From Embleya hyalina (lineage in GTDB: Bacteria; Actinomycetota; Actinomycetes; Streptomycetales; Streptomycetaceae), in assembly GCF_003967355.1 (NCBI RefSeq), contig NZ_BIFH01000038.1, forward strand, positions 1,249-65,248: a stretch of 64,000 nucleotides of DNA. The letters are read 5' to 3'. Under the pieces are notes generated by a model that saw only the letters and a list, made by a program, of their open reading frames with translations, was not told the origin of the DNA and searched no databases. Position 1 is the stretch's first letter. Each line of letters opens with the position of its first letter. Positions 5,561-29,300 of this stretch are shown piece after piece. A program made the translations under genes and the position numbers.

Positions 5561-5597
5561 AGCGGGATCATCGCAGGTGGCGGCGGTACGGCCGAGC

Positions 5598-5622
5598 TCG
5601 ATTGACGACCATCGTCAATCGA
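5598..5622. promoter_or_regulatory. Perfect operator palindrome between ArsR and MFS genes
   Basis: TCGATTGACGA (5598-5608) and its exact complement TCGTCAATCGA (5612-5622) are separated by CCA. An inverted repeat with ATTGA/TCAAT arms is typical of ArsR-family operators. It lies 38 bases before the regulator's GTG and just before the exporter's possible starts, so it can control both divergent genes. Confidence 0.8.
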
Positions 5623-5659
5623 CGTGACCATCGACGGGCACGCCGGCCACGGTGTCGCC

Positions 5660-9252: not shown

Positions 9253-9271
9253 GTTAGGAAACTTTCCTAAC
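9251..9271. promoter_or_regulatory. CsnR-type operator overlapping the chitosanase promoter
   Basis: GTTAGGAAA (9253-9261) and TTTCCTAAC (9263-9271) form a perfect 9+1+9 palindrome. It matches the operator known upstream of Streptomyces chitosanase genes, bound by the ROK-family repressor CsnR and released by chitosan oligomers. TAGTTA at 9251-9256 could be the -10 element, which would make repressor binding directly block transcription. The csnR gene itself is not in this window. Confidence 0.85.
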
Positions 9272-9337
9272 AAAGGATTCCAGCCGGCACGCCAAGCCCC
9301 CCGAACATGGCCGTCATCGGCCGGAACGGAGACGCAC

Positions 9338-10198: not shown

Positions 10199-10253
10199 CC
10201 CGCGACGGCCCCGGATCCCCCCGACCCGGGACCCGACCCCTCCCATGCACCGC

Positions 10254-10281
10254 AAGGCCGCCGCCCTCCCGCGGCGGCCTT
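10254..10281 (+). terminator. Terminator after the chitosanase gene
   Basis: AAGGCCGCCGC (10254-10264) and GCGGCGGCCTT (10271-10281) form an 11-bp perfect stem with a 6-base loop, 56 bases after the chitosanase stop. Confidence 0.8.
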
Positions 10282-10529
10282 CCGCATGCCCGCTCCGCCC
10301 GGACGACCCTCGCCGGTCCGAGCGCGGTCGGGTTTGAACCGGCCGCCCCGGATGGGCGGCGAGCGACGTGATCCTTACGCGCGCGCTGCGCGGGGAAGAT
10401 GTCGGGGGCGGTGCGGGAAAGGTGCTCCGGGAGAATCAAATACGCGTGGTTTGCCAAGGGGACCGGGAATGGACGATTTCGTCCCCGGGGTTCTCCACGA
10501 TCCCGACGGACCCTGGTGAGGGGAGCGCG

Positions 10530-11036: not shown

Positions 11037-11125
11037 TGTGATCACGCGGTGATGTGGTGACGCCGTGACGCCGTGATCGGGCCGGGCCGAGGCTTGCTGT
11101 GGGTGGGGCGTGTGAAGATGGCCCG

Positions 11126-14068
11126 GTGACGGATGTGGGTTGGGATGCGGCTTTGGTGGGGCGGGGCGAGGAGGTTGCCCGGCTCGAGGAGGCGCTGGGG
11201 CGTGGGCGGTCCGGCGATCCCTGCGCCGTGCTCGTGGCCGGGGACGCCGGTGTGGGGAAGACGCGGTTGTTGGCGGAGGCGGCGGCCCGGGCGGCCGGGG
11301 CCGGGATGACCGTGTTGACCGGGCACTGCGTGGACCTCGGCGATGTCGGACTGCCCTATCTGCCCTTCGTCGAGGTGCTGCGGCGGTTGGAGGCCGACGA
11401 GCGGCATGCCGACGTGTTGGCCGCGCATCCGGCCGTGGAGCGACTGCTGCGGGCCGGCGGGGGCAAGGAGCACGCCGGCGACATGCCGGACTCCGGAGTG
11501 CGACTGCGGCTCCTGGAGGACGTCGCCGGGCTGCTCGGGGACCTGGCCGAGCAGGCGCCGGTGTTGTTGGTCGTCGAGGACCTGCACTGGGCCGACCAGT
11601 CCACGCGCGACCTGCTGCGCTTCCTGCTCAGCCGACTCCTGCCGCAACGCCCGGGGGCGGCCGGCTACCAGCGGCTGACCGTACTGGTGTCCTATCGCTC
11701 CGACGACCTGCACCGCCGCCACCCGCTGCGCCCGCTGCTCGCCGAACTGGTGCGCCTGCCGTCCGTCGGGCGGCTCGACCTGCGGCCGATGGACGACGAC
11801 GACGTGGCCCGCCTCGTCCGCGGCCTGGCCGCCGACCCGCTGCCCGAGCACACCGTCCGGGCCATCGTCGAGCGTGCCGAGGGCAACGCCTTCTACGCCC
11901 AGGAACTGCGGGCCGCCACCGACGACATCGACGGCGGCGTGCCCAGCGGCCTGGCCGAGGTGCTGCTCACCCGGATCGAGCAGATGTCCGGTGTGGCCCA
12001 GCGGGTGCTCCGGACCGCGGCCGTGGCGGGGCGCCGGGTCGAGCACGGACTGCTCCGGGACGCCGTCGAGCTGCCCGACGACGAGTTGGAGACCGCGCTG
12101 CGCGAGGCCGTCGGGCGGCACCTGCTGGTCGCCGGCGAGGGCGACACGTACGCCTTTCGGCACGCGCTGACCCGGGAGGCGGCGTACGCGGACCTGCTCC
12201 CGGGCGAGCGGGTCCGGATCCACGGCGTGTTCGCCCGGCTGCTCGGCGAGCCGGGCCGGCGGGCGGGCAGTTCGGCCGAGCGCGCCCACCACCACCGCGC
12301 CGGTCACGACCTGCCCGGTGCGCTCAGCGCCTCGGTCGAGGCCGCCGACGCCGCAGCCCGGATGGGCGCGCCCGCCGAGGAGATGCGCCGCCTCGAAGCG
12401 GCCCTCGAGGTGTGGGACGCGGTGCCGGACGCCCGCGAACTGGTGGACAGCGACGACGTGACGCTGATGATGCGTGCCTCGGCCGCCGCCGTGCGGGCCG
12501 GCGAGGCGCATCGGGCCGTCGCCTTCGCACGCAGCGCGCTGGACCGGGTCGGCGAACACGCCGACGTCGACCTCGCCGTCACCGTGCGCTACACGCTCGC
12601 CTCCAGCCTGATGAACGTGGACAACCTCCACGCCGCGTTCGAGTACAGCAGCCAGGCGCTCGCGATGATCCCCGCCGACCCGCCCTCGCGCACGTGGTTG
12701 TGGGCGGCGGCCACCCACATCCAGGCCGCCTACTACCTCAACGACGACGAGACCGCGCGCCGACTCGGTCATCAACTATTGGCCGCCGCCGAGGAGTTGG
12801 GCACCGACGACGCGCTCGCCGACGCGATCATCTCGCTGACCGGCCTGGAATGGGGCAGCCGCCAGGACCCGGAGGGACGCGAACGGCTGAGCCAGGCACG
12901 CCACTTGGCGCACAAGTCGGGGAACACCGCGATCGAGTTGCGGGCGCTGTTCAACCTGGCCATGGGCAGCTTCGAGTCCGGTCGACTCGCGGAGAGCCTG
13001 GGCTGGCTGGACGAGGGCCTGGAACTGGCCCGCCGCACCACCAGATCCACCTCGCCCTACCCGCTGGACATGCGGTACCTCCGCGCCCAACTCCTGTACA
13101 CCCTCGGCCGCTGGGACGAGGCGCTCGAAGTGGTGCCCGAGGCGGTGCCGTCCGCGTTCCGGCACGTCGCGGAGGCGGCGCTGTACGTCCCGCTGGGCCG
13201 GGGCGAGCCGGGTGTCGCGGAGCGGGCCCGCGCCCTGTTCGAGGAGCGGCCGTTCAACTGGATGGGCACCCTGATCGGCAGCCTGGTGCTCATCGACGAG
13301 GCGGCCTGGCGCGGGGATTCCACGGCGGCGGCCGAGTGGGCGCGGCGCGCGCTCGACGCGTTGTCCGAGGACCGCAACCCCTTTCCCGACGCGGGCATCC
13401 GGATCTCGGCCCTGGCCCTGTCCGCGATCGGCGACGCCGCGACCGAGTCGCGGGCGGCCGGGGACACCGAGGCGGCGGCCCGGGAGGTGGCGCGGGCGGA
13501 GCAGTTCATCGAGCGGGCCCGTACCACGATGTCCTGGCCCAATCGGCGCTTCCCGCGCACCGGACCCGAGAGCGTCGCCTGGTTGTCGCGCGCCGAGGCC
13601 GAGTGGGCGCGGGTGCGCGGCGAGGTCGACGTCGCGCTGTGGGAGAAGACCGCCGAGGCGTACGGCTACGGCAACGTGTTCGAGCGGGCGCGCAGCGAAC
13701 TCCGGCTGGCCCAGGCACTGGTGGCCGCGGACCGGCGGGAGGAGGCGACCGCCCTGGCGCAGCGGGTGCGGGAGACCGCGGAGCGGCTGGGGGCGGTACC
13801 GCTGCGCGACGCGGTGGACGCCATGGTGCGGCGCGCGCGACTGGCCGGTTCGGCGGCGCCGGCCGACGAGGTGACGCTGACGGCGCGCGAGCGTGAGGTG
13901 TTGGAGCTGCTGGCGCGCGGGTTGAGCAATCGGCAGATCGGCGAGGAGCTGTACATCAGCGCCAAGACCGCGAGTGTGCACGTGTCCAACATCATGGCCA
14001 AGGTCGGCGCCTCGCGCCGCACGGAGGCGGTCGCCCTGGCGCGGCGCGGCGGGTTGATCCCGGACTAG
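11126..14068 (+). CDS. LAL-type LuxR regulator with AAA ATPase domain
   Basis: A 980-residue large ATP-binding regulator of the LuxR family. A Walker A motif lies at residues 39-46 (GDAGVGKT), a Walker B-like VLLVVEDLHWAD at about 149-160, a long TPR-like helical region follows, and a LuxR helix-turn-helix closes the protein (LTAREREVLELLARGLSNRQ, then SAKTASVHVSNIMAKVGASR). Proteins of this class activate degradation and antibiotic clusters in response to an inducer. The GTG start at 11126 aligns with the usual family N-terminus (LVGRGEEVARLEEAL). It lies next to the lanthipeptide/NRPS region and in the same direction as the exporter, so it is a candidate pathway activator, though this is only positional. 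Confidence 0.9.
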   Translation: MTDVGWDAALVGRGEEVARLEEALGRGRSGDPCAVLVAGDAGVGKTRLLAEAAARAAGAGMTVLTGHCVDLGDVGLPYLPFVEVLRRLEADERHADVLAAHPAVERLLRAGGGKEHAGDMPDSGVRLRLLEDVAGLLGDLAEQAPVLLVVEDLHWADQSTRDLLRFLLSRLLPQRPGAAGYQRLTVLVSYRSDDLHRRHPLRPLLAELVRLPSVGRLDLRPMDDDDVARLVRGLAADPLPEHTVRAIVERAEGNAFYAQELRAATDDIDGGVPSGLAEVLLTRIEQMSGVAQRVLRTAAVAGRRVEHGLLRDAVELPDDELETALREAVGRHLLVAGEGDTYAFRHALTREAAYADLLPGERVRIHGVFARLLGEPGRRAGSSAERAHHHRAGHDLPGALSASVEAADAAARMGAPAEEMRRLEAALEVWDAVPDARELVDSDDVTLMMRASAAAVRAGEAHRAVAFARSALDRVGEHADVDLAVTVRYTLASSLMNVDNLHAAFEYSSQALAMIPADPPSRTWLWAAATHIQAAYYLNDDETARRLGHQLLAAAEELGTDDALADAIISLTGLEWGSRQDPEGRERLSQARHLAHKSGNTAIELRALFNLAMGSFESGRLAESLGWLDEGLELARRTTRSTSPYPLDMRYLRAQLLYTLGRWDEALEVVPEAVPSAFRHVAEAALYVPLGRGEPGVAERARALFEERPFNWMGTLIGSLVLIDEAAWRGDSTAAAEWARRALDALSEDRNPFPDAGIRISALALSAIGDAATESRAAGDTEAAAREVARAEQFIERARTTMSWPNRRFPRTGPESVAWLSRAEAEWARVRGEVDVALWEKTAEAYGYGNVFERARSELRLAQALVAADRREEATALAQRVRETAERLGAVPLRDAVDAMVRRARLAGSAAPADEVTLTAREREVLELLARGLSNRQIGEELYISAKTASVHVSNIMAKVGASRRTEAVALARRGGLIPD

Positions 14069-14105: not shown

Positions 14106-14172
14106 GCGGGGCTTCGCGGGGCGGCGTGCTTGGTGTCCGGTGCGGGGCTTCGCGGGGCGTGCTTGGTGTCCG
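14106..14172. repeat. Imperfect tandem duplication, about 33 bp
   Basis: The stretch beginning GCGGGGCTTCGCGGGGC and ending GTGCTTGGTGTCCG is present at 14106-14139 and again at 14142-14172. The second copy lacks three bases (GGC) in the middle. It sits between the LAL stop and the ABC exporter start. Confidence 0.75.
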
Positions 14173-14256
14173 TGCGGCCACCCGTCCGCCCCATTGGTAC
14201 CCGTAGCGTGCCTCGGGCTCGGGCATACCCCACTTGTCGGCCGGGAGGGGTTCGGG

Positions 14257-16173
14257 ATGGCGGGGCATGTGCCACCGGAGTTGGGCGAGTTCGACGAGTT
14301 GGGCGAGGGCTACGACACACCCTTCGACGGCGAGGCGGCGAACGCGGGACTGGGTCGCATGGTGACCCGGTTGCCGGTCGCGCTGGCGCAGGTGTGGCGC
14401 CTGGCGTGGGCGGCCGGTGGGCGTGCGGCGGTGGTGTCGGTATGCGCCCAGGCCGCGGCCGGGGTGGCCACCGCCCTGGCGCTGCTGGCCACGTCGCGGG
14501 CGTTGTCGGCGCTGTTCGCCCCGGGGCCGGCGGCGGACCGGGTCGGCGACGCGGTGCCGGCGGTGATCGCGGTGGTGGTCGCGACCTCGGCCCGCGCCGG
14601 GTTGGAGACGGTGGTGGCGGCGACCCAGGCCCGACTGTCGCCGGGGATCCGTCGGGTCGCCGAGGAGCGGCTGCACGCGGCGGCGGTCGGCGCCGAGTTG
14701 GCCGCGTTCGACGACGCCGACTGGCACGACGCGCTCGCCCGGGCACGCGACCGCGGCATCGACCACGCCCAACTGGCCCTCGCGCACGCGGTCGAACTGC
14801 TCGGCGCCCTGGTGGGTTTGCTGGTCGGCATCGGGGTGGTGACCGGGCTGCACCCGGTACTGCTGCCGCTGTTGGTGCTGTCGATCGCGCCGCAGGGGTG
14901 GGCCGCGCTGCGCTCGGCCCGGATCGGGTTCGAGGGCATGGTCCAGCGCATGACGCTGTATCGGCGCCTGTGGTTGTTCGCCGACCTGCTCACCGCCCGG
15001 GAGGCGGCGGCGGAGGTGCGGGCCGGGACCGCCGAGCGGCCGCTGTTGACCGAATACCGGCGCCTGGCCCGGCTGGTCGAGCGGGCCGAGGTGCGGGTGG
15101 GCTACGCCCAGGTGCGGGTGGGCGTGGTCGGGCGCACGCTGTCGGGCCTGGCGTTGGGGGCCACCTACGTGGCGCTGGGACTGCTGGTCCGCGCCGAGAT
15201 CGTGCCGCTCGCGGTGGCCGGCACCGCGGTGTTGGCGGTGCGAACCGCGAGCGGTTCGCTGGCCACGCTGATGGTGGCGGTGGACCGGCTCTACGAGAAG
15301 TCCCTGTACATCACCGACTATCACGCCTTCCTGGCCGAGGCGGTCGGCCGGGCCCGTCCGCCGGCGGTGGGCGAGGTTCCGGACGGTTTCGCGGAAATCC
15401 GGTTACGGGACGTCTACTTCGCGTACCCCGGCAGCGCGGGACCGGCGTTGCGCGGGGTGGATCTGGTGATTCGGCGGGGTGAGACGGTGGCCCTGGTCGG
15501 GGAGAACGGGTCCGGCAAGACCACCCTCGCCCTGCTGTTGGCCGCGCTGCACCGGCCGGACAAGGGCACCGTGCACTGGGACGGCACGGACCTGGCCACG
15601 GTCGACCCGGTGGGGGTCCGCGAGCAGGTGGCGCTCGTGATGCAGCAGCCCACGCGGTGGCCGCTGACGGCGCGCGGCAACATCGTGCTCGGCCGCGCCG
15701 GTCGGCCGGACGCGGACGGTACGGCGCTGACCCGGGCGGCCCGGGACGCGGGCGCCGACGGCCTGATCTCGCGACTCCCGTACGGCTACGACACGTTGTT
15801 GTCGAAGAAGTTCCGCGCCGGGGTGGACCTGTCCGGCGGCCAGTGGCAGCGGATCGGGATCGCGCGCGGCTTCTACCGGGACGCCCGCCTGCTGATCGCC
15901 GACGAACCCACGGCGGCTCTGGATGCCCGCGCGGAGCACGCGGTCTACGCCAACATCCGGCGGCTCGCGGCCGGCCGCACGGTGGTGCTGATCAGCCACC
16001 GGTTGGCCTCGGTCCGCGAGTGCGACCGGATCGTGGTGCTGCGCGCCGGCGAGGTGGTCGAGCACGGCACCCACGAACAACTGATGTGCGAGAACGGCGA
16101 ATACGCCGACCTGTACCGGATCCAGGCATCGGCCTACGCGGACGGATCGGGCGGCGCGACTCCCGTGCCATAG
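14257..16173 (+). CDS. ABC exporter, fused permease and ATPase
   Basis: A 638-residue half-transporter. An N-terminal membrane domain of six segments spans roughly residues 45-330, followed by a nucleotide-binding domain with Walker A GENGSGKTT near residue 415, signature LSGGQWQR, Walker B LLIADEPTAALD and an H-loop (LISHRLASV). The ATG at 14257 has GGGAGGGG upstream. There is no N-terminal C39 peptidase domain, unlike dedicated LanT transporters that cleave double-glycine leaders, so precursor processing would need another protease. It converges on lanM with 18 bases between stops and is the natural candidate to export the lanthipeptide, but it could also confer resistance. Confidence 0.85.
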   Translation: MAGHVPPELGEFDELGEGYDTPFDGEAANAGLGRMVTRLPVALAQVWRLAWAAGGRAAVVSVCAQAAAGVATALALLATSRALSALFAPGPAADRVGDAVPAVIAVVVATSARAGLETVVAATQARLSPGIRRVAEERLHAAAVGAELAAFDDADWHDALARARDRGIDHAQLALAHAVELLGALVGLLVGIGVVTGLHPVLLPLLVLSIAPQGWAALRSARIGFEGMVQRMTLYRRLWLFADLLTAREAAAEVRAGTAERPLLTEYRRLARLVERAEVRVGYAQVRVGVVGRTLSGLALGATYVALGLLVRAEIVPLAVAGTAVLAVRTASGSLATLMVAVDRLYEKSLYITDYHAFLAEAVGRARPPAVGEVPDGFAEIRLRDVYFAYPGSAGPALRGVDLVIRRGETVALVGENGSGKTTLALLLAALHRPDKGTVHWDGTDLATVDPVGVREQVALVMQQPTRWPLTARGNIVLGRAGRPDADGTALTRAARDAGADGLISRLPYGYDTLLSKKFRAGVDLSGGQWQRIGIARGFYRDARLLIADEPTAALDARAEHAVYANIRRLAAGRTVVLISHRLASVRECDRIVVLRAGEVVEHGTHEQLMCENGEYADLYRIQASAYADGSGGATPVP

Positions 16174-16191: not shown

Positions 16192-19104
16192 TCAGAGTTC
16201 GTCGAGGAGCAGCAGTGACGGCGGGCGTTCCTCGCCGGTCGGGTGCATGCGCAGGAGTTGGTGCAGGGCGCCCGCGCTGCCCGGCAGCAGGGACGCCGTG
16301 GTGGTGTGCCGGGTGGACGGGGTGTGTGGGCCGTAGGTTTCGAGCCCGGTCAGCAGGAGCGCGTCGAGGTGGGCGCGGGTCGGGGCCTCGGGCAGGTGGG
16401 ACCGAAGCTGCTCGGGGGCGCCGCGCAGGAGGGTGTCCAGGAGTTCCCACGAGCCCAGGTCGCCGTGGCACAGTGTGTAGTCCCAGCCGAAGCCGGTACG
16501 CCAGGTCGCCGCCGCCGCGCGCAGGGCCCGGTCCAACTGCCCGGGTGCGCCGGTGCGCCGGTACAGGTCCCAGCCGGCCAGGCCGATGCCGGTGCTGCCG
16601 TGGCACCAGGAGTCGAGGAACAAGACCTCGCCCCGCTGCCGGCCGTCCAGCCAGCCGCGCGCCTTCGGGTCGTACAGGGCCTCCTGGAACGCCCAGGCCA
16701 GGTCCGCGAGTTCGAACCACTCGGGCTGGTCGACGGCCAGGCCGAGCCGGGTCAGGGCCCAGGCGATGCCCGCGGCGCCGTGCGCGAAGCCCCCGATGCC
16801 GTCGGGGAAGAGTACGGTCGGCCAGCGGGCGGTGCGTCGGCCGAGGGTGTCCTCCTCGACGACGGCGCGTCGCCCGAGCAGTTCGGCGGCGGATTCGGCG
16901 ACGTCGCGCCAACGGCGGTCGCCGGTACGGTCGGCCAGGGCGAGCATCGGTACGATCAGCCCGGCGGCGCCGCCGGCCAGGTCGAGGATGGTGTCCTCGG
17001 CCAGCAGGCCCGGTGCACGCTCGGCGTGTCGGATCGCCCGTTCCAGGTCGGCCGGCCGGCCCGACGCGGTGTGCAGGGCCAGCCAGGTGCGGACCGCCGC
17101 GCCGATCCCGTCGAACGCGCCGACCCGGGTGGTGGGTACCGCGTCCTCCATCGCCGCCAGTGCCCGGATCGCCCCCTCGGTGAGCGCCGACAGCCCTTCC
17201 ACGGCCGGCACCCGGCCCGCGCGGGACTCGGTCAGATACGCCCGCAGGGCCAGCACGACGCCGGCCTGTCCGCTGTACAGGTCGGCGGCGAACGGGCGTA
17301 CGTTGAAGCCGCTGTCGGTGTACACCGGCCCGATCCAGGTGGCCGTCCCGTCCGCGCCCACCACGGCCCGGGCACACAGGTCGCGCGCGGATTCGGCGGC
17401 GAGGGCCCGCCGGCGTTCCTCCCGCTCGTCGTGTCGTACGGCGACCTCGTGGTGTCGTTCCCCCTCCGGCATCGCGCTGCGGTCGCGGTAGACGCCGAGC
17501 AGCGAGGAGCGGATCATCACCTCCTCGAACTCCGGATCCCCGGCCCGCCAGCGGGCGACGCTCTCGTCGATCAGGTGTGCGGGATCGCCCCATTCGGTGC
17601 CGCGCGGTCCGCTCATCCGCCCCCGCTCGGGCCGGACGCCGAAGAACGGGATGTCGCCGTCGAGGAGATCGGCGACCTCCGCGCCGACCACCTCCGGCGT
17701 GTCGGGGGCGCCGTGCAGCGCCTTCGCCTGGCGGATCAGTACGTCCCGGGCGCGTTCGACGGCCGGGCCCTCGTCGTGCAGCGACGCGGGATGCCACAAC
17801 ATCCGGGCGATCTCGACGTAGACCTGGGTGGGGCGCAACACCACCCGCAACTCGCAGCCGGCGAACACGTCGAGTATGGGACGCAGTCGCCCGGCCGCGT
17901 CGAGTCCGTCCAGGCGGGCGCGCAGGTCGCGGTAGCCGTGCACGATGTCGTCCTGGTGGGCGAGCGGATCGGCGTCGGGGGCGGGCAGGTTGGCCGATCC
18001 GGCCACGTCGGCCGGCTGCATCGTCAGCCGGGCCAGATCGGTGCCGGCGCCGGTGATCACCGGGACCGGGACGCGCGGCTGCTGGTCCGGGAGGGCGCCG
18101 ACGGCGGACATGTCCACGCCCTGCAGGGCGAGTTGGCCCAGGCGCATCGGCAGCAGGCCGGTGCGCAGCACGGTGCGCCGGACCGAGGCGGCGGCGGTGT
18201 CGAAGGCGTCGCCGAGTCCGCTCGCGCCGACCCGGGGTTCGGGGCTGAACAGGGTCTCGCAGTCCACCACCCACGGGACGGGGCCGCGGGCGATCACGTT
18301 CTCCGAGTGCAGGTCGGTGCCGCCGAGGAGTTGCACGACGCACATCCACTCGCCCAGTCCGCGGTAGAAGCGGGATCGTTCGGCGGCGTCGGCGCAGTAG
18401 CGGTGTTCGACGTGTTCGGCCCAGCCGTGGTCGCCGCCGAGCAACACCCGGGGCACCGCGATGCGTTCCTCGCGCGGGATGTGGGCCAGAAGGGTGTCCA
18501 CGGTGGTGGCGAGGGCGACGTCCACGGCGAGCGCGCGGGGTTTGTACACCACCCGGCCGGCCTCGAAGCGGAGCAGGGCCACGGTCCGGCCGCCGCGGTG
18601 CGAGTCGCCCGCGTCCGTGCCGATCTCGACGAGTTCGCCGGGGCGCGTGCCGAGCAGGTCGGTCAGCCGGTCACGGTCGCCGGCGATGTGCCGGGCCAGG
18701 GTGAGCAGCGCCGTGCAACGATTGCGGATCACCCGGTCCAGGCGTGGGGCGAACGCGGGGTAGTCGTCCTGGAGTTCGCTCCAGAACCCGGGCTCGGCGG
18801 CGCGTTCGAGGAATTCGTGCCAGCGTTGCTCGCTGGTCGCGCGGGTGAGCCGGCCGGACATCCGGGCGGCGTGCAGTTCCAGCAGGAGCAGCCGGTTGGC
18901 CTTGGGGCGCACGGTGTCCAACAGGCCGCGTCGGGCGGCGCGCAGCAGGATCTCCCGCTCGGTGGTCGACAGCGGGTCCGGCACGGCGCGCAATCGGCGC
19001 CGGAAGCGGTTCAGGGCGGGGCCGATCAGCGGCTCGAACGTGGTGTCGAACTCGCCCGCGTCGTCGTAGCCGACCACGGGACGGGGCCGGACCGGAATCG
19101 CCAT
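16192..19104 (-). CDS. lanM: Class II lanthipeptide synthetase LanM
   Basis: A 970-residue bifunctional enzyme that dehydrates Ser/Thr of the precursor and then forms (methyl)lanthionine rings. The N-terminal kinase-like dehydratase shows VVYKPR with Lys188, GGTDLHSENV with Asp264/His266 and VVDCETLF with Asp281/Glu283. The C-terminal LanC cyclase has the zinc ligands Cys834 (DSWCHGSTG) and Cys879-His880 (TLCHGDLG), plus GFAHGAAGIAW. All catalytic motifs look intact and the length is near the family norm (900-1050). It lies 90 bases downstream of the precursor gene in the same direction, with a hairpin between them that may lower synthetase expression relative to precursor. Confidence 0.96.
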   Translation of the reverse strand: MAIPVRPRPVVGYDDAGEFDTTFEPLIGPALNRFRRRLRAVPDPLSTTEREILLRAARRGLLDTVRPKANRLLLLELHAARMSGRLTRATSEQRWHEFLERAAEPGFWSELQDDYPAFAPRLDRVIRNRCTALLTLARHIAGDRDRLTDLLGTRPGELVEIGTDAGDSHRGGRTVALLRFEAGRVVYKPRALAVDVALATTVDTLLAHIPREERIAVPRVLLGGDHGWAEHVEHRYCADAAERSRFYRGLGEWMCVVQLLGGTDLHSENVIARGPVPWVVDCETLFSPEPRVGASGLGDAFDTAAASVRRTVLRTGLLPMRLGQLALQGVDMSAVGALPDQQPRVPVPVITGAGTDLARLTMQPADVAGSANLPAPDADPLAHQDDIVHGYRDLRARLDGLDAAGRLRPILDVFAGCELRVVLRPTQVYVEIARMLWHPASLHDEGPAVERARDVLIRQAKALHGAPDTPEVVGAEVADLLDGDIPFFGVRPERGRMSGPRGTEWGDPAHLIDESVARWRAGDPEFEEVMIRSSLLGVYRDRSAMPEGERHHEVAVRHDEREERRRALAAESARDLCARAVVGADGTATWIGPVYTDSGFNVRPFAADLYSGQAGVVLALRAYLTESRAGRVPAVEGLSALTEGAIRALAAMEDAVPTTRVGAFDGIGAAVRTWLALHTASGRPADLERAIRHAERAPGLLAEDTILDLAGGAAGLIVPMLALADRTGDRRWRDVAESAAELLGRRAVVEEDTLGRRTARWPTVLFPDGIGGFAHGAAGIAWALTRLGLAVDQPEWFELADLAWAFQEALYDPKARGWLDGRQRGEVLFLDSWCHGSTGIGLAGWDLYRRTGAPGQLDRALRAAAATWRTGFGWDYTLCHGDLGSWELLDTLLRGAPEQLRSHLPEAPTRAHLDALLLTGLETYGPHTPSTRHTTTASLLPGSAGALHQLLRMHPTGEERPPSLLLLDEL

Positions 19105-19194: not shown

Positions 19195-19398
19195 TCAGCA
19201 ACAGGCGCGGGTGCGCGACCACGAACAGGCGGTGCCGCAGCTGATCGCCGCGACGTCGATCTCGGTGAGGCCCTGTTCCGTGGCGGATCCGCCGATGTAG
19301 AGCGAACCGGCGGGGTTTTCGACGCCGTCGGCCGTTTCGGCGCCGGAGCGCCAGGCGTCGACGACGGGGTTCCGCGTGGCATTCGATGCGGTGCGCAT
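19195..19398 (-). CDS. lanA: Lanthipeptide precursor peptide (mersacidin-like)
   Basis: A 67-residue precursor directly upstream of lanM. The leader begins MRTASNATRNPVVDAWRSGA and contains ENPAG at about residues 27-31. Mersacidin's leader has the same arrangement, a hydrophobic-x-x-W-basic segment followed by NPAG. The C-terminal core reads ISCGTACSWSRTRACC: four Cys (54, 58, 66, 67) and five Ser/Thr (53, 56, 59, 61, 63). Up to four thioether rings are possible in only 16 residues, with two Arg giving positive charge. No classical GG cleavage site is present; EIDVAA precedes the core, so cleavage after Ala51 is my guess. The start is supported by GGAAAGG about nine bases upstream. Confidence 0.88.
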   Translation of the reverse strand: MRTASNATRNPVVDAWRSGAETADGVENPAGSLYIGGSATEQGLTEIDVAAISCGTACSWSRTRACC

Positions 19399-19837
19399 GA
19401 CGATACCTTTCCGCCGATGTCGATGACTACCGGCGGGTACACCGGGTTCAACGATCATCGACCCTGGGTGAGGGAAGTGCGGCAGGCACACGTTAGCGCC
19501 CGAATGTCGTCCGCGACAGACTTCCGCGCGACGAGGCGAATTCTCCGCTCCCAGGCCGGAATCGAGTAGTTCGCACGCGGCGCGACGAGCCGGCGGGGTG
19601 GTCGATGTGCCCTTCCGACGCTGCGACCGGCCGGTTTTCCACCTCGAACGTGGTCCGGGATTCGGAACGGCTCTTGTCATTGGTCTAGTCCATTGACAGT
19701 CTTGGGCGCGTCGCCGACGGTCATCGCTCCATGGCTCGTCGGTGGTTCCCGTACGGCAAATTCCGCCTATTTCGAGCGTGAGCCGACACTGCTCCGTCGG
19801 CGTACCGAACTTTGCACTCCTACCCCGGAGAAGAACC
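19399..19837. promoter_or_regulatory. Divergent control region of lanA and the NRPS operon
   Basis: About 440 bases without a convincing gene other than the leader ORF that follows. It must hold the promoters of lanA (leftward) and the NRPS operon (rightward). It has lower GC than its flanks. The only strong site I can name is the box at 19679-19698, listed separately. Confidence 0.6.
19679..19698 (+). promoter_or_regulatory. DasR-like (dre) box overlapping a -35 element
   Basis: ATTGGTCTAGTCCATT at 19679-19694 matches the DasR responsive element consensus A(G/C)TGGTCTAGACCA(G/C)T at 13 of 16 positions. A consensus -35 hexamer TTGACA (19693-19698) overlaps its right end, about 140 bases before the leader ORF. 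A GntR-family regulator sensing amino sugars could repress the NRPS operon here. The -10 element is not clear. Confidence 0.5.
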
Positions 19838-19894
19838 ATGCGCAGAGCTCAACCACGTCCGTGCCCGGCGACGTCGAAGCGGGGCGCGCCGTGA
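19838..19894 (+). CDS. 18-codon leader ORF coupled to the first NRPS gene
   Basis: ATG at 19838 follows an excellent ribosome binding site (GGAGAAG, 19827-19833) and opens a short frame encoding MRRAQPRPCPATSKRGAP. Its TGA (19892-19894) overlaps the GTG start of the NRPS gene at 19891. The NRPS start itself has only a weak ribosome binding site, so translation of the short ORF probably delivers ribosomes to it. The peptide is basic and Pro/Arg-rich and is unlikely to function on its own. Confidence 0.55.
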   Translation: MRRAQPRPCPATSKRGAP

Positions 19895-22800
19895 CCGCCC
19901 CCGACGTCCGGCCCGGGTTATCCGGTTCGAGGCGTCCCGAGGACCGATTCACCGTCCCGGGCCTGTTGGTAGCCCGCGCGCACCTCGACCCGCATCGTGT
20001 CGCGATCCTGGTTCCGGGCGATACCGGGACCGGACTGACCTTCACCGACTGGTGGCACCGATCCGTCGCCCTGGCCCGCGAGTTGCACGATCGGGGGGTA
20101 CGCGCGGGGGATCGGGTCGCGCTGATCTTCGCCGGTCGCGAATGGGCCGACTACGCGGTCGCCTACTGCGCGGTCCAGTGGGCCGGCGCGGTCGCGGTAC
20201 CGCTGCCCGAACGCCTGCCGGCCGCCGCCGTCCAGGTCCTGCTCACGCACTGCGCGGCGACCGGCGTCCTGCACGGTGTCGACGTCGAGCCACCGAACAC
20301 CGAGGCGTGGACCGCGATTTCGACCGGCGTCGAAGCCGCCGCACCCGCGAAGGCCCCTTCGAATCCGGACCGCCTCCCGGCACCGGACCCCGTCGATCCG
20401 CACGAATCCCCGGAGTCCGCCGAACCCCCGGCCCCCGCCGGGCCGCATCCCGACGACCTCGCGCAGATCCTCTACACCTCCGGCACCACCGGCACCCCCA
20501 AGGGTGTCGCCGCCACCCACGCCAACCTCACCCACGGCTTCGAACCGGCGCCCCGACGACGGCAGTTGGCGCACTCGAAGCACTTCCTGCACGCCTTCCC
20601 GATCGGCACCAACGCCGGGCAGACGATGTTGCTCAACGCGCTGACCGCCCAGCCGACCGCGCTGTGCGCCCCGACGTTCGACGCCGAGGAGTTCTGCGCG
20701 CTGATCGCCGCCCACCGGGTCGGCACCGTGTTCACCGTGCCCGCGATGGCGACCGACCTGGTCAACTCGCGCGCCTGGACCCGACACGACCTCGACTCGG
20801 TGCAACTCTTCGGCTCGACCGCCGCCGCACTGCCGCCGGCCACCGCACTGGCCCTGGCCGAAATTTTCCCCGACGCCGTGATCGTCAACTCCTACACCTC
20901 GACCGAGGCGGCCCCGGCGCAGACCACCATGGTCTTCGACCCCGACCGGCCGACCTCGGTCGGGCGCGGCACCGGCGCGGACGACCTGCGCATCGTCGGC
21001 CCGGACGGCGAACCCGTACCGACCGGCGAGGCCGGCGAGATCTGGCTCCACTCGCCCACCACCTCGCGCACCTACTACCGCGACCCGAGCGCGGACGCCG
21101 GGGTGTTCACCGCCGGCTGGATCCGGATGGGCGACATCGGCCGACTCGACGCCGACGGCTACCTGTACCTGATCGACCGGGAAAGCGACCTGATCAAGTC
21201 CGGCGCGAACAAGATCGCCACGCTCGCGGTGGAGGCCGCGCTGTACGAACACCCGGACGTCGCCGAGGCCGCCGTGTTCGGTGTTCCACACGCCGTGATG
21301 GGCACGACGGTCTCCGCCGCCCTGGTCCTGCGGGACGAGGTCTCGGGCGACGACCTGCGGGCGTTCCTGCGCGAACGCCTGGCCCGGCACGAGATCCCGA
21401 CCCGATTCCTGCGCCTGGACGCCCTGCCCCGCAACCCCGCGGGCAAGGTGGTCAAGGGGGAGCTTCGAGCCCGGATGGCGGCGGACGACGCCGCGCGGCC
21501 GAGCCTGCCCCGGACCGCGACCGAGTCCGCCGTCGGCGGCCTCTGGGAGGAGGTGCTGGGCACGCCCGGCGCCGGGCCCGACGACAACTTCTTCGCCCTG
21601 GGCGGGGATTCGTTCAAGGCGACCCGGCTGGCCGCCGCCGCGACCCGGCTGTTCGCCCTCGACGTGCCCGTCTCGCTCGCCTTCGACCGACCCGAACTCG
21701 GCGGCCAGGCGGCCTGGATCGACACCGCCCGGGCGCGACCGGAACCCACCCGCACGGAATCGCATCGCGCGGGCGCGCGGGAGCCCGCGTGCGAGCGGCC
21801 CGGGCCCGTAGGGCCCGAGTCGGCGGAGAACCCGGTCGTCCGCATGCCGCTCAGCTCCCAGCAGGAGAACTTCTTCGTCTGGATGTACGCCACCGAGCAG
21901 CCGCGCGACGTCGGCCCGGTCAGCGTGGGCATCCGGATCACCGACACCCTCGACCCGGACATCCTGGAGGCCGCCCTGGGCGAGGTGGTGCGCCGGCACG
22001 AGGCGCTGCGCACCGTCTTCCACTACGCCGACGGCAGCGTCGACGCCGTCGTACTCGCCGAACTGCCGCCCGAGATGCGGCGGATCCGCGCCGAAGGCGC
22101 CACGCACGCCGACCGCGAACGGTTCGCCCGCGAGCACGCCGGCACCGAACGCGAACACCACTGGGATCTCGCACACGGGCCCCTCGTGCGCGCCCTGCTG
22201 ATCGAACTCGACCCCGAGGAGCACGTGCTGATCCTCGCGGTGCACCACATGGTTTTCGACGGCTGGTCGATGGGCGTGCTGCTCCGGGAACTGGCCCTCG
22301 TGTACTCGGCGTTGCACACCGGTCGGCCCGCTCCGCCGGCTTCGTCCGCGCCGACCTGCTCGGAACACCTGGGCTGGGCCCGCGCGCAATGGCCGCGCAC
22401 CCGCCCGTTCTGGGAGGCGACCCTGGCCGGGGCGCCCGCCGCGCTCGACCCCTTCCCGGGGCGCGCGGTCACCGGCCTGCTGCACAGCGGTTCGGTGCGT
22501 TTCGGCCTTCCCGTCGACCTGGTCGAGCGATTGCGCACGGCCGGCCGCGAGCGGGGCGCGACGCCGTTCATGCTGGCCACCGCGTGCTGGACGGGCGTCC
22601 TGGCACGGGCGTCCGGCATCCGCGACATCGTGGTGATGTCGCCGGTGCCCGGCCGGACCCGACCGGGCAGCGAGAACCTGATCGGCTGCCTCGTCCAGTC
22701 CCTGTTGATCCGGGTCGACCTCGGCGGCGACCCGTCGTACGACGGCCTGCTCGACCGGGTCCGCACCGCCTCGCTGGCCGCGACCGAGCACCAGTGCTAC

Positions 22801-23175
22801 CCGTTCGCCGAGTTCTACCCGCGCTTTCCGGACGCGGCCTGGGTGCGCTACGAGAGCTGGAGCAACCAGGCGCACTTCCTGGGCCTGCTCTCCGAACCCT
22901 TTGAGCTGCCCAGGCAGTTGGACGCCGAATGGCCCACGCCGGACGGCCGCCCGGACCTGGGCGTGCCCGAACTGGCCCTGACCGAACAGCCCGACGGCAC
23001 CATCGCCGGCTGGCTGCTGTACAACGACCGCGCGTTCGCCCGGCCCGTCGTCGAGGACCTGGCCCGGGCCTTCGTCGAGGCCTGCGAGTTCGCGCTCGAC
23101 CACCCCCAGGCGCCGGTGTTCGGGGACACCGCCGCGCCTGCGTACGCACCCACCGCCTCCCAGAAGGGCCGCTGA
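19891..23175 (+). CDS. NRPS loading protein, A-T-C
   Basis: A 1094-residue synthetase. The adenylation domain (about residues 25-535) carries LYTSGTTGTPKG near 193 and VVKGEL near the end. It belongs to the acyl/aryl-acid ligase branch: the Asp that anchors the amino group of amino-acid-activating domains is not found in the substrate region, so it likely loads a carboxylic acid. The carrier domain has FFALGGDSFKATRL (phosphopantetheine Ser near 574). A complete condensation domain follows, with HHMVFDGWS at about 785-793. The GTG at 19891 is preferred because it overlaps the stop of a short leader ORF. The gene overlaps the next by one base (TGATG). An A-T-C order followed by another C domain is unusual. 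Confidence 0.9.
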   Translation: MTAPDVRPGLSGSRRPEDRFTVPGLLVARAHLDPHRVAILVPGDTGTGLTFTDWWHRSVALARELHDRGVRAGDRVALIFAGREWADYAVAYCAVQWAGAVAVPLPERLPAAAVQVLLTHCAATGVLHGVDVEPPNTEAWTAISTGVEAAAPAKAPSNPDRLPAPDPVDPHESPESAEPPAPAGPHPDDLAQILYTSGTTGTPKGVAATHANLTHGFEPAPRRRQLAHSKHFLHAFPIGTNAGQTMLLNALTAQPTALCAPTFDAEEFCALIAAHRVGTVFTVPAMATDLVNSRAWTRHDLDSVQLFGSTAAALPPATALALAEIFPDAVIVNSYTSTEAAPAQTTMVFDPDRPTSVGRGTGADDLRIVGPDGEPVPTGEAGEIWLHSPTTSRTYYRDPSADAGVFTAGWIRMGDIGRLDADGYLYLIDRESDLIKSGANKIATLAVEAALYEHPDVAEAAVFGVPHAVMGTTVSAALVLRDEVSGDDLRAFLRERLARHEIPTRFLRLDALPRNPAGKVVKGELRARMAADDAARPSLPRTATESAVGGLWEEVLGTPGAGPDDNFFALGGDSFKATRLAAAATRLFALDVPVSLAFDRPELGGQAAWIDTARARPEPTRTESHRAGAREPACERPGPVGPESAENPVVRMPLSSQQENFFVWMYATEQPRDVGPVSVGIRITDTLDPDILEAALGEVVRRHEALRTVFHYADGSVDAVVLAELPPEMRRIRAEGATHADRERFAREHAGTEREHHWDLAHGPLVRALLIELDPEEHVLILAVHHMVFDGWSMGVLLRELALVYSALHTGRPAPPASSAPTCSEHLGWARAQWPRTRPFWEATLAGAPAALDPFPGRAVTGLLHSGSVRFGLPVDLVERLRTAGRERGATPFMLATACWTGVLARASGIRDIVVMSPVPGRTRPGSENLIGCLVQSLLIRVDLGGDPSYDGLLDRVRTASLAATEHQCYPFAEFYPRFPDAAWVRYESWSNQAHFLGLLSEPFELPRQLDAEWPTPDGRPDLGVPELALTEQPDGTIAGWLLYNDRAFARPVVEDLARAFVEACEFALDHPQAPVFGDTAAPAYAPTASQKGR

Positions 23176-26100
23176 TGCGCACCACCCGACCGGTATCCCT
23201 GCCGCCGGAATCCCCGTGCCGAGCCCCGGTGTCCCCGGCGCAACACGGCATCCGGTTCACCGAACTCGCGGTACCTACGGGCACCGCGCACCACATGCCC
23301 CTGAGCATCCGGTTCACCGGCGATCTCGACCGGGCCGCGCTCGCGCACGCCTGCGACACGGTCGTGGTGCGACACCCGGTCCTGGGCAGCGCGCTGCGCG
23401 AAATCGACGGAGAGCCGTGGCTGGTCCCCGCCGACACCGTGCCGCGCCTGGTGATCGAGGACCTGACCGAGGCGCCCGACAACCGACGCGCGGATCTGGC
23501 CGCCGAGTCGCTGCGCCGCGAGACACTGCGCCCGTTCGACCCGGAGACCGGGCCGCTGGTGCGCTTCACCCTGGTCGACGCGGGCCCCGGACACCGGACC
23601 CTGCTCGTGGTCGCCCACCACCTCGCCTTCGACGGCGGCTCCAAGGACATTCTCGTCCGCGATCTGGCCGCGCACTATGCCGCGTTCGGCACCGGCGTCG
23701 AACCGGATCTGCCGGACCTGGCGGAGTCGGAGGACGCCGAGCGCATCGCCCGCGAGGCGGCCGAGGCCGAGCGCCGGGTCGGCCTGGCCGAGATCCGCTT
23801 CGCCACCGAGGAACGCGAACCACCCGCCGTCATCCTGCCCGGACGCCGCCACACCACGACCGACGGCGACACCGGCGGGTCAGTCCCGATCGCCGTCGAC
23901 GACGAACTGCGCGTGGCCCTCGCCGCCACCGCCGAACTCCTCGGGGTCAGTACCTTCGCGCTGCTCCTGGGCGCGCTGCACGTCCAGCTGTGGCGCTACG
24001 GCAACGAACGGACCACGGTCGCCATCGACCTGGGCACCCGCACCCCGCACAGCCGCGACCGGGTGGGCCCCTACGTCAACGAACTCCCCATCCACACCAC
24101 GCCCTCCGCCGACCCCACCTTCCGTGCCTTCGTCCAGGCCCTGCGGGCGGACCTGCGCGACCTGTACCCGGTCCGCGACGTGCCGCTGGGCCGGGTCGTC
24201 ACCGGCCTGACCCCGCGCCTGGCGCTGGCGCCGGTGTCGATGAGCTATCGCCGCCGTACCTCGGTGCCCGACTTCGCCGGCCTGCCCGTGTCGATCGACT
24301 GGACCGTGTTCAACCACGCCGCGCGCGGTGACCTGCACGTGCAGTGCCTGGACGACCCGAACCGGCTCGCACTGCACCTGCACTACGCCTCCGACGCCTT
24401 CGGCGAGGGCGCCGCGACGGCGATCGCGGGCCACTACCGGACCCTGTTGCGGGCGATCGTCGCGGACCCGGACGCCCGCCTGTCCCGCCTCGCCCTGCAG
24501 AGCGCCGACGCGCGCGAACGCATGGTGCGCGATTGGAACGACACCGCCCGAGAGACCGAACCGGACACCCTGCCGGCGCAGTTCACGGCACAGGCCGCCC
24601 GGACCCCCGAGTCGATCGCGGTGGAGTGCGGCGCGACCCGGCTCACCTACGCCCGACTCGACGCGGCCGTCGACGCGGTGGCCCGGCGGTTGCGGAGCGC
24701 CGGGATCGGTCGAGGCGACCTGGTCGCGGTCTGCGCGCGCCGCACCGCCGCGTTGCCCGCGGCACTCCTCGGGGTGTTGCGGGCGGGCGCCGCGTATCTG
24801 CCGCTGGACCCGGAATACCCGTCGGCCCGCCTGGCGATGGTGCTCGAAGACTGCGCCGCGGATGCCCTGTTGACCGAACGCGACCTCCTCGGCCGCTTCC
24901 CCGGACACGCCGAGGAAGCGCTGCTGATCGACGGGATCGAGGGGCTCGACGGGACCGACGACCTCGCCGGCACGGCGGAGATCGACCCGGCCGGCCCCGA
25001 TCCGGTGGCGGCACCCCCACCGACCCCCGGCGAACTCGCTTACGCGTTGGCCACGTCCGGCTCCACCGGGCGCCCGAAGGGCGTGGAGATCGAACACCGG
25101 GCGCTGGGCAACCTGCTCGCGTCGATGCGGGACGTCCTGGCCTGCGCCGCCGACTCGGTGTGGCTCGGGCTGACCTCGGCGTCCTTCGACATCTCGGCGG
25201 TCGAGCTGTACCTGCCGCTGATCACCGGCGGGCGACTCGTGCTCGCCGAGGACGCGGAGACCCGGGACGGCCGGGCGCTGCTCCGGTTGATCCGGGGCCG
25301 ACGGGTAACCCATGTCCAGGCCACCCCGTCCGGCTGGCGCATGCTGCTCGACGCGGGCTTCGAGGAGCCGGCGGTGTGCGCCGTGACCGGCGGCGAGCCG
25401 CTGCCGGTGCCGCTCGCCCGGGAGCTGCGCCGCCGGGCCCGCCGACTGGTGAACGCGTACGGGCCGACCGAGACCACGGTGTGGTCCAGCACCGCCGAGA
25501 TCGACCCGGACGACGAGGTGACCATCGGCCGCCCGATCGCCAACACCCGGATGTACGTCCTGGACCGACACCTGACCCCCACCCCGGTCGGGGTGGCGGG
25601 TGACCTGTACATCGGCGGCGACGGACTGGCCCGGGGCTACCGCCGGTTGCCCGCGGTCACCGCCGACCGTTTCGGGCCCGACCCGTACGGCCCGCCCGGC
25701 GCCCGCCTCTACCGCACCGGCGACCTGGCCCGGTATCGCGACGACGGCCGGATCGACTTCCTGGGCCGGGACGACCACCAGGTCAAGATCCTCGGCCATC
25801 GGGTCGAACTCGGCGAGATCGAGGGCGCGTTGCTCGACCACGCGGGCATCGCCGCGGCGGCCGTGACGGTGCGTGGGGACGGCTCCGACGGGGCGGCCCT
25901 GGTCGCCTACCTGGTCCCGCGCGGCGCCGCCACGCCGAGCGCGGCCGAACTGCGCGTACATCTGACCGCGACGCTGCCCCGGGCCCTGGTGCCCGGCGTC
26001 TATGTGCCGCTGGAACGCCTGCCGCTGACCCCCAACGGCAAGCTGGACCGGGCCGCGCTGCCCGCGCCGCCGCGCCTGCGGGCGGCCGAACCGGACCCGG

Positions 26101-26363
26101 ACCACGAGGTGGACACTCCCGCCGACACCGGGCCCGCCGCCGAGATCACCGCGATCTGGCGCGAAGTGCTCGGACTGGACGACATCCGTCCCGATGAGGA
26201 CCTGTTCGACCTGGGCGGCCACTCGTTGACCGTCACCCGGATCGGCGCGCGGATCCGCAAGCGCCTCGGCGTCGACGTACCGCTGCACGTGTTCTTCGAA
26301 ACCCCGACCATCTCCGGACTCACCAGCGCGGTATCCGCGATGCGAAGCGAACGGCGGCCATGA
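23175..26363 (+). CDS. NRPS module, C-A-T
   Basis: A 1062-residue single module. The condensation domain has HHLAFDGGS at about residue 149; the usual Trp after DG is replaced by Gly. The adenylation domain shows ATSGSTGRPKG near 627, FDISAVELYLPL, NAYGPTETTVW and NGKLDRAALP. Aligning by eye to GrsA gives substrate-pocket residues D-I-V-Q-V-G-A-V-W, which recalls glycine codes (D-I-L-Q-L-G-L-I-W) but is not an exact match. The carrier motif FDLGGHSLTVTRI is near 1012. There is no epimerase. The stop and the next start overlap (ATGA). Confidence 0.93.
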   Translation: MRTTRPVSLPPESPCRAPVSPAQHGIRFTELAVPTGTAHHMPLSIRFTGDLDRAALAHACDTVVVRHPVLGSALREIDGEPWLVPADTVPRLVIEDLTEAPDNRRADLAAESLRRETLRPFDPETGPLVRFTLVDAGPGHRTLLVVAHHLAFDGGSKDILVRDLAAHYAAFGTGVEPDLPDLAESEDAERIAREAAEAERRVGLAEIRFATEEREPPAVILPGRRHTTTDGDTGGSVPIAVDDELRVALAATAELLGVSTFALLLGALHVQLWRYGNERTTVAIDLGTRTPHSRDRVGPYVNELPIHTTPSADPTFRAFVQALRADLRDLYPVRDVPLGRVVTGLTPRLALAPVSMSYRRRTSVPDFAGLPVSIDWTVFNHAARGDLHVQCLDDPNRLALHLHYASDAFGEGAATAIAGHYRTLLRAIVADPDARLSRLALQSADARERMVRDWNDTARETEPDTLPAQFTAQAARTPESIAVECGATRLTYARLDAAVDAVARRLRSAGIGRGDLVAVCARRTAALPAALLGVLRAGAAYLPLDPEYPSARLAMVLEDCAADALLTERDLLGRFPGHAEEALLIDGIEGLDGTDDLAGTAEIDPAGPDPVAAPPPTPGELAYALATSGSTGRPKGVEIEHRALGNLLASMRDVLACAADSVWLGLTSASFDISAVELYLPLITGGRLVLAEDAETRDGRALLRLIRGRRVTHVQATPSGWRMLLDAGFEEPAVCAVTGGEPLPVPLARELRRRARRLVNAYGPTETTVWSSTAEIDPDDEVTIGRPIANTRMYVLDRHLTPTPVGVAGDLYIGGDGLARGYRRLPAVTADRFGPDPYGPPGARLYRTGDLARYRDDGRIDFLGRDDHQVKILGHRVELGEIEGALLDHAGIAAAAVTVRGDGSDGAALVAYLVPRGAATPSAAELRVHLTATLPRALVPGVYVPLERLPLTPNGKLDRAALPAPPRLRAAEPDPDHEVDTPADTGPAAEITAIWREVLGLDDIRPDEDLFDLGGHSLTVTRIGARIRKRLGVDVPLHVFFETPTISGLTSAVSAMRSERRP

Positions 26364-29300
26364 ACCCGACCCGAAGCCACGACCCGCACCCGTTGTCGGC
26401 CCCGGCCCGGCCCGCCGACCCGTCCGCGTCCCGCCCAGCGCGGCGCATCCCGCTCTCCGCCGGCCAGGAGCGGCTGTGGCTGCTCGACCGGATCAACCCC
26501 GGCGACGCGGCGTTCAACATGTTCCAGGTCCACCGCCTGCGCGGCCCGCTCGACGTCGCCGCACTCGACCGCGCCCTGTCCGAACTGGTCGACCGGCACG
26601 ACAGCCTGCGCGCGACCTTCCCCGACGAGGACGGCGTACCGATCCAGGTGATCGGCGCGCCCGGGACGTTCGCCCTGGAGCGGGTGCGGGTCGACGGCGC
26701 CCCGGCCGAACGCGAACAGCGCGCCCGCGACCTGGTGGCCGAACGCACCAACCGCGCGTTCGATCTGGCGCGGGGCCCGCTGTTCGCGGCGAGCCTGCTG
26801 CACCTGGACTCCGCCGGCCTGGACCACGTGTTGTGCCTGGCCCTGCACCACATCGTCGCCGACGGTTGGTCGATGAACGTGGTCGACGAGGAACTGGCCG
26901 CGCTGTACGCGGCGTTCGTTGAGGGCCGCCCCTCGCCGCTGGCCCCGCTGCCGCTGGACTACGGCGACTACGTACGGCGGCAACACGAACTCCTCGACGA
27001 GCCCGGCTTCGAGGAGCGGCTGACCTACTGGACCCGACAACTCGCCGGTGCGCCGACCCTGGACCTGCCGGTCGACCGACCCCGCGGCGGCGGCGCCGAC
27101 ACCGAGTCCGGACACGGCGGCACGGTCACCCACCACCTGCCCGCCTCGCTGCGCACCGGAATCGAACAACTCGCCCGGCGCGAACGGGTCACCCTCTACA
27201 TGACCCTGCTCGCCGGATACCAGACCCTGCTCGCCCGCTACTGCGACCAGGAGGACGTCTGCGTCGGCTCGCCGCTGGCGGGTCGGGACGAGGAGGACTA
27301 CGAGCCGCTGGTCGGCTACTTCCTCAACACCCTCGTCCTGCGCGGCAGTACCGCCGGCGATCCGTCCTTCCGCGACTTCCTGACCCGCACCCGCACGGTG
27401 GCCCTCCAGGCGTACGCGCATCAGGACGTGCCGTTCGAGCGGCTGCTGGGCGCGTTGGACGTGGACCGCGATCCGGACAGCCCGCCGGTGTTCCAGACCA
27501 TGCTGACCCTGCGCCCACCGGCCGGAGCCGGACTGCGCCTCGCGGGGGTCGCGGCCGAAGGGTTCGCGTCGGGCTTTCGGCAGGCGAAGTTCGATCTGGC
27601 CCTGGAGGTCTGGCCGGAAGGGGACGAACTGATCACCGAATTCGTCTACAACACCGACCGCTTCGCCCCCGAGAGCATCGCCCGACTGGCCCGCTGCTTC
27701 GAGACCCTGCTCGCGGGCGCGGTCGCGCGTCCGGAAACCCCGCTGTCCCGGCTGCCGCTGTTGTCGGCGGCGGAGCGCGTCCGCATGCTGGCCGGCGCGA
27801 TGGGACCGACCGGCGGCGAATGCCCGGATCCGGTCGTGGCCTTCGAGGTGCAGGCGCTGCGCACCCCGCACGCGGTCGCCGTCGAGTCGGGTGACACCCG
27901 GGTCGACTACGCCGACCTCGACGCCCGGGCGAACCGGCTCGCCCGGGGGTTGCGCCGGGCCGGCACCGGACCGGACACGGTGGTCGCGGTATGCGCCGAA
28001 CGTTCGATCGAGACGGTCGTCGCGCTGCTGGCCGTGCTCAAGGCGGGTGGCGCGTATCTGCCGATCGACCCGACCTCGCCGACCGACCGGATCGAGTGGA
28101 TGCTGGCCGACGCCGGGGCGGAACGGGTGTTGTGCCGGGCACGATTCGCCGACCGGTTCGCCGGGGGCGCACTGCCGGTGCTGCTCCTGGACGAGGTCGA
28201 TCCGGATCCGAGTGGCGACACCGAGGCGGAGCCGCCCGCCCGGATCGCCGGTCCCGACCATCTGGCCTACATCATCTACACCTCCGGTTCCACCGGCCGC
28301 CCCAAGGGCACCCCGATCACCCGGGAGGCGCTGGCCGCTCGGGTGGCGTGGATGCGCGAGCGGTATCGGAGCGGGCCCGGTGATCGGGTGTTGCAGTTCG
28401 CCTCGTTCGGCTTCGATACGCACGTCGAGGAGCTGTATCCGAGTCTGCTCGGCGGCGCCACGCTCGTGCTCGCCCCCGCCGACGGGCTGCTGCCGGACTT
28501 CTTCGGCACCGCGGCCGGGCGCACGCTCACGGTGCTCGACCTGCCCACGTCGTATTGGCACGAACTGGTCGCCCAGACACCGGGCTTGCCCTGGCCAAAG
28601 ACCCTGCGGCTGCTGATCCTGGGCGGGGATCAGGCCGACGCGGCCTCGATGCGGCGCTGGCACGAGGTGTTCGGCGAGCGGGTCGAGGTGGTCAACACGT
28701 ACGGCCCGACCGAGGCCACGGTGATCGCCACCGCGGCGGACCTGGCCGGCGGCGCGGCCGGAGCCTGGGACGGTTCCCGCCCGCCGATCGGCCGCCCGCT
28801 CGCGGATACCCGCGTACATGTGCTGGATCGGCACCTGGAACCGGTACCGATCGGGGTCCCGGGCGAACTGTGCATCGGTGGGGCCGGGTTGGCGCGCGGC
28901 TATCTCGGTCGACCGGCCCTGACCGCGCGCCACTTCGTGCCCGACCCGTACGGGCCGCCCGGAGCCCGGCTCTACCGCACCGGTGACCGGGCCCGGCTAC
29001 GCGCGGACGGGGCCCTGGAGTTCCTGGGTCGCAACGACCACCAGGTCAAGCTGCGCGGCTACCGGATCGAACTCGGCGAGATCGAGGCGGCCCTGGTGGC
29101 CCGGCCCGACGTCGGGCAGGCGGTGGTGGTGGTCCGGGACGAACGAGGAGATCGACGGCTGGTCGCCTATGTGGTGCCGGAGGCGGGCGGGTCGATGCCC
29201 GTGCCCGACGGGGCGGAGTTGCGGGCCGCGCTGGGGCGCACCCTGCCGGCCCACGTGGTGCCCGCGGCGTTCGTGACCCTGGACCGGTTGCCGCTCACCC

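Follow-up and report, generated by a model that had tools for sequence, protein, structure and literature searches.

Precursor peptides of the DUF6229 family have already been published as class II lanthipeptides, both in the description of the rhodanocins (PMC9576775) and in a mining study of Lysobacter (PMC11451712). The DUF6229 precursor LanII of Dyella sp. 333MFSha is modified to a rhodanocin with four dehydrations and three rings, which were placed by NMR between T6 and C11, C8 and S14, and T12 and C23, with T18 present as Dhb (PMC9576775). The name rhodanocins was proposed by the same authors, who expect at least two DUF6229 ring patterns. In Lysobacter, DUF6229 peptides make up 21 of the 27 unique class II precursors (PMC11451712), and lanthipeptides had not been isolated from this genus to date according to PMC10745450 and PMC10380237. 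In the literature on Embleya, embleporicin is described as a class I lanthipeptide.

Mersacidin is the other described system that comes close to the locus considered here, and the two have in common a class II LanM. The mersacidin leader carries a W and an NPAG, as does the leader of the peptide described below. The two cores differ in their spacing, and mersacidin acquires its C-terminal AviMeCys with the help of a LanD flavoprotein.

The window, that is the whole stretch of 64,000 nucleotides of Embleya hyalina DNA that was analyzed, contains a two-gene lanthipeptide system and several neighboring genes whose features are as follows.

11099-14068, plus strand: large AAA/LuxR-type regulator (PF13191, PF00196), a possible regulator of the cluster.
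14140-16173, plus strand: ABC exporter (PF00005), convergent with lanM; its true start perhaps lies further in.
16192-19104, minus strand: LanM, a class II lanthipeptide synthetase of 970 aa with its catalytic residues present (TIGR03897, 508.8 bits; PF13575, PF05147).
19195-19398, minus strand: lanA, a DUF6229 precursor peptide of 67 aa, stop codon included (translation, PF19740, orthologues).
19198-19245, minus strand: residues 52-67 of lanA, the core ISCGTACSWSRTRACC, of the type C-G-[TS]-x-C-[ST]-x-S-x4-C-C.
19246-19398, minus strand: residues 1-51 of lanA, assigned as leader from the invariant leader residues of 18 members, with a provisionally chosen border to the core.
19406-19412, minus strand: GGAAAGG, read from the sequence as a likely ribosome-binding site, 7 nt before the ATG.

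The lanA gene runs on the minus strand from an ATG (19396-19398) to a stop codon (19195-19197), ends 90 bp upstream of lanM, and is translated in full as the 67 aa peptide MRTASNATRNPVVDAWRSGAETADGVENPAGSLYIGGSATEQGLTEIDVAAISCGTACSWSRTRACC. Residues 8-67 match the Pfam profile of DUF6229 (PF19740) with an E value of 8.1e-24 and 83.8 bits, the cut-off being 25. The 16-residue C-terminal end is identical in two genomes of the same genus (G001 and G002), and in a third one (G003) the core is LTCGTACSGSRTRMCC. Over the 16 core codons, lanA and its counterpart in G001 are separated by four synonymous and no nonsynonymous differences. A chance open reading frame is ruled out by the profile match together with these synonymous-only changes. 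Judged from its sequence, lanA is genuine and encodes the precursor of a class II lanthipeptide, with LanM as its partner. This class had been proposed by an earlier sequence-only reading, which named no strand, and is borne out by the PF19740 match and the adjacent LanM; the composition listed there for the 16-residue tail (five Ser/Thr, four Cys, and two Arg, with Cys-Cys at the end) agrees with the translation. A search for a solved structure of the precursor returned no match at E up to 1.

The same reading had called the peptide mersacidin-like, a label for which no support was found. NCBIfam models gave no match to the lanA peptide, first at E up to 1 and then up to 10, and DUF6229 was its sole Pfam match. 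Membership in the mersacidin/lichenicidin group was rejected on these profile searches, which included no control run with a mersacidin precursor. Among the annotated neighbors of lanA there is no LanD flavoprotein. In the 18 aligned DUF6229 members W16, P29, A30, G31, G37, and E41 are invariant, as is the terminal Cys-Cys; the W and the PAG found in the leader are characteristic of DUF6229.

The window LanM matches the solved structures LicM2 and CylM. In an alignment of 86 LanMs its nine dehydratase residues and its three Zn ligands are all in place, and position 775 is occupied by the His that serves as the cyclase acid in NisC. The catalytic sites were placed by this alignment, with the CylM residue names given in PMC4550811. 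It is probable that lanA is the precursor of a class II lanthipeptide of the rhodanocin type, that it is processed by the adjacent LanM, and that the product is exported. LanM would bind the leader, phosphorylate Ser/Thr residues of the core, and eliminate the phosphate; it would then add Cys thiols to the dehydro residues, and thioether rings would result from this predicted pairing. The product would leave the cell probably through the ABC exporter at 14140-16173 and may serve an antibacterial use. This exporter gave only an ABC_tran match and no peptidase C39 domain at E up to 0.1, and so lacks the domain that marks class II clusters with double-Gly leader processing. No leader protease was recognized, which weighs against the explanation given here. 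A relative of the exporter was called in at least 26 of the 80 loci that were collected by LanM similarity.

The AAA/LuxR-type regulator also adjoins the lanthipeptide genes in two other loci (L037 and L039), and in both, as in the window (19693-35304, plus strand), NRPS genes diverge from the lanthipeptide genes. In the last NRPS reading frame of the window a thioesterase and an MFS domain are present as well. At 9338-10198 on the plus strand lies an enzyme of family GH46 (the chitosanase family; PF01374, E 4e-104).

The core of lanA is widely shared within its family. With identical C-termini merged before counting, 49 of the 93 distinct DUF6229 C-termini collected contain the frame C-G-[TS]-x-C-[ST]-x-S-(4-5)-C-C. 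The 49 fitting sequences were selected on 30 residues by Cys positions only (C-x3-C-x3-(2-6)-C-C), and in them position 2 of the core is Gly and position 8 is Ser without exception, position 3 is Thr in 44 and Ser in 5, and position 6 is Thr in 28 and Ser in 21. A stricter pattern, which itself demanded Ser/Thr at positions 3 and 6, was fitted by 51 of 96 distinct 45-residue C-termini; the others comprise 18 of a C-x2-C type, 4 of a repeat type, and 23 of other kinds. All 51 have a Ser/Thr one to four residues before the first Cys (three to four residues before it in 43; adjacent, as in lanA, in 6), and the terminal loop has four residues in 49. In 13 of the 51 this loop is devoid of Ser/Thr, and the recurrent hydroxyl positions that remain are then as many as the Cys, four of each. 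The rows behind these counts are interrelated and hence do not represent independent events. Carriers of the C-G-T core include Xanthomonas, Luteimonas, Dyella, Sphingopyxis, Comamonas, Myxococcus, Pyxidicoccus, and many actinomycetes, as well as an acidobacterium (L087) and a Chthoniobacterales bacterium (L104), each represented by a metagenome-assembled genome; judging from the organism names, about five phyla are spanned. The core had been regarded earlier as unlike the known class II cores. This stands insofar as no characterized product with the lanA core was found in the literature, in a search that covered the main texts of mostly open-access papers; it does not stand for the core type, which is common within DUF6229. 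With lanA, a lanthipeptide family that is already in print gains a new member, and the core of this member is widely conserved.

With the Lysobacter peptides (PMC11451712) lanA shares the precursor family. Rhodanocin and lanA have precursors of one Pfam family, are each partnered by a LanM, and carry a Ser/Thr and a Cys ahead of a C-[ST]-x-S segment. Rhodanocin has T6, C8, C11, T12, S14, T18, and C23, as printed in PMC9576775, whereas the inner Cys of lanA, C54 and C58, are four apart and are followed by two terminal Cys (C66-C67). The spacing T6-x-C8-x2-C11-T12-x-S14 with a single terminal ring-forming C23 is thus absent from lanA, in a comparison made with the printed ring positions. When the two are anchored by analogy on C-[ST]-x-S, T6, C8, C11, T12, and S14 of rhodanocin fall on S53, C54, C58, S59, and S61 of lanA; the first two are spaced differently by one residue, and lanA has an extra residue between the inner Cys. 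The C-x2-C type (e.g., TGCSSCTGS of Streptomyces) is nearer to rhodanocin in spacing than the lanA core is.

Because the lanA core resembles the NMR pattern of rhodanocin plus one inserted residue and one added Cys, four thioether rings, one of them reversed, may be expected in its product. A tentative map, which is put forward by analogy and could well be wrong, would join S53 to C58 and, in reversed sense, C54 to S61; S59 would be linked to one of the terminal Cys and T56 to the other, while T63 would be either Dhb or unchanged. The transfer is uncertain because rhodanocin has three rings and because the spacing of C8/C11 differs from that of C54/C58. A further point against it is that the Ser before the first Cys is adjacent in lanA, unlike in most relatives of the core. 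The monoisotopic masses calculated for residues 52-67 are 1703.70 unmodified, 1631.66 after loss of four waters, and 1613.65 after loss of five; for residues 48-67 the corresponding values are 2059.87, 1987.83, and 1969.82. The product might instead have three thioether rings only, one vicinal Cys being free or in a disulfide. Rhodanocin itself has three rings for its four dehydrations, and LanII-2B, another class II product of the same work, was left with one Cys free when it was expressed in E. coli (PMC9576775). However, all 18 aligned members end in Cys-Cys and four hydroxyl positions recur alongside the four Cys; this alternative is considered unlikely.

PF19740 matches were obtained in 22 of 199 relatives, in 22 of 394 genomes from the same taxonomic family, and in 3 of 396 genomes drawn across the phylum, where the own genome alone was above the curated cut-off; the own genome is counted in all three figures, and the 14 control genomes gave none. 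These tallies are possibly low, as only part of the first-pass candidates was scored in many genomes. An iterated profile run on 107 loci recovered 114 DUF6229 peptides in 102 of them, the other five being four flank extensions (L057-L060) and one truncated locus (L144). Of the 23 DUF6229 loci examined (L034-L056), all but the paralogue of the own genome (L034) had a called LanM, which makes 22. Conversely, a DUF6229 peptide is present in 79 of the 80 loci found by LanM similarity (L066-L145), which are the best 80 of 203 retrieved with query LanMs from DUF6229 loci and hence do not form an unbiased survey. Counts of neighboring genes are lower bounds, gene calling having followed a simple GC-position rule.

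Several of these loci have features of their own. In Rhizohabitans arisaemae (L076, about 5055-6893) one LanM is accompanied by a tandem array of seven DUF6229 precursors, whose cores differ and constitute a natural variant set. A berberine-bridge-type FAD oxidase (PF01565, PF08031) lies downstream of LanM in at least 14 of the 80 loci, from several phyla (e.g., L084, 11757-13199), and may be a tailoring enzyme; 13 of the 14 also carry the relative of the window exporter. None of the called window genes falls in the cluster of this oxidase, and no literature joining a class II lanthipeptide with berberine and FAD was found.

Another group, from 4 of the 394 genomes of the family, has a DUF6229 leader followed by long tandem repeats (L053, about 9186-10088; L054, about 9514-10353; L055, about 9110-9955; L056, about 9840-10351), with units of the kind VTTE (VTTEALRDS), VTIED (VTIEDAF), or ITIEE (ITIEEPS). 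There is no Cys in the repeats, the one Cys of L055 being in the leader. Each of these precursors stands beside a LanM, and these LanMs form one branch (FastTree, support 100). Their nine dehydratase residues and their Zn ligands are intact; the cyclase His at position 775 is absent in 3 of the 4, and it is present in 81 of the 82 other LanMs, the last one being truncated there. All four loci have called genes nearby for a class III aminotransferase and an MFS protein, and L054 and L055 have one for a P450 as well. Dehydration without ring closure, perhaps in a dehydration-only class II RiPP, would be a natural guess for these loci.

On the LanM tree (FastTree, 83 rows with the window LanM entered twice, the partial L067, L101, L135, and L144 omitted, rooted at the midpoint only), core type is clustered: it changes 10 times, compared with 33.8 times on average after shuffling. 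The Embleya LanMs join that of Wenjunlia (support 100) and then the LanMs of C-x2-C and repeat-core loci (support 100). Because they thus stand apart from most LanMs of C-G-T loci, the C-G-T core would be either old in the DUF6229 family or of more than one origin. This grouping of the Embleya LanMs with enzymes of other core types counts against the explanation preferred here.

The genome (12.05 Mb in 78 contigs) contains a second, orphan DUF6229 precursor on contig C19 (165602-165805, minus strand; L034, about 9800-10006), whose core is QTCGTVCSISRTRMCC. It is 69% identical to lanA and keeps all four Cys; the codons of the two differ with dN 0.27 and dS 1.15, one codon having been dropped. 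No LanM is present in the 19.8 kb around it. PF13575 has three matches in the genome, the window LanM and two on contig C22, and it is hypothesized that the orphan precursor could be modified in trans by the window LanM. On contig C22, a peptide ending in NWCTLTKECQRSCN, with a Lantibiotic_a match, is encoded beside one of these two LanMs (L062, 3392-3925, minus strand), and together with a nearby Cys-rich peptide it may form a two-component lantibiotic.

As regards function, the product could be chiefly a conserved signal or morphogenetic peptide rather than an antibiotic. The lanA frame has been kept across distant bacteria, in contrast to fast-changing cores. On the other hand, activity against Klebsiella pneumoniae is on record for the relative from Dyella, albeit at no less than 126 uM (PMC9576775), and a role of this kind is held to be improbable, about as much so as the three-ring structure. 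A joint action of the lanthipeptide and NRPS genes on one shared product is set aside as highly improbable because NRPS-like genes were called within about 7 kb at only 3 of the 80 LanM loci (a lower bound, and one of the three is Embleya), despite their divergent position in the window, L037, and L039; the lysobactin NRPS cluster as deposited likewise contains a DUF6229 gene, a link that the authors hold to be unrelated (PMC9576775).

The preferred reading is that of a rhodanocin-type precursor with its own LanM. A further reading, in which the lanA core would be a separate type with four interlocked thioether rings, one reversed, kept with little change across about five phyla because of a single conserved target or signal and not as a fast-changing antibiotic, and in which the C19 precursor would be modified in trans, is rather speculative and somewhat less credible than the ring map alone. 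A core frame common to actinomycetes, gammaproteobacteria, sphingomonads, myxobacteria, and the two metagenome-assembled genomes, for which no product was found in the literature searched, is unusual. The orphan paralogue offers a natural test of LanM action in trans, the two-gene system of the window is small enough to be expressed at once, and one solved ring map would inform dozens of genomes.
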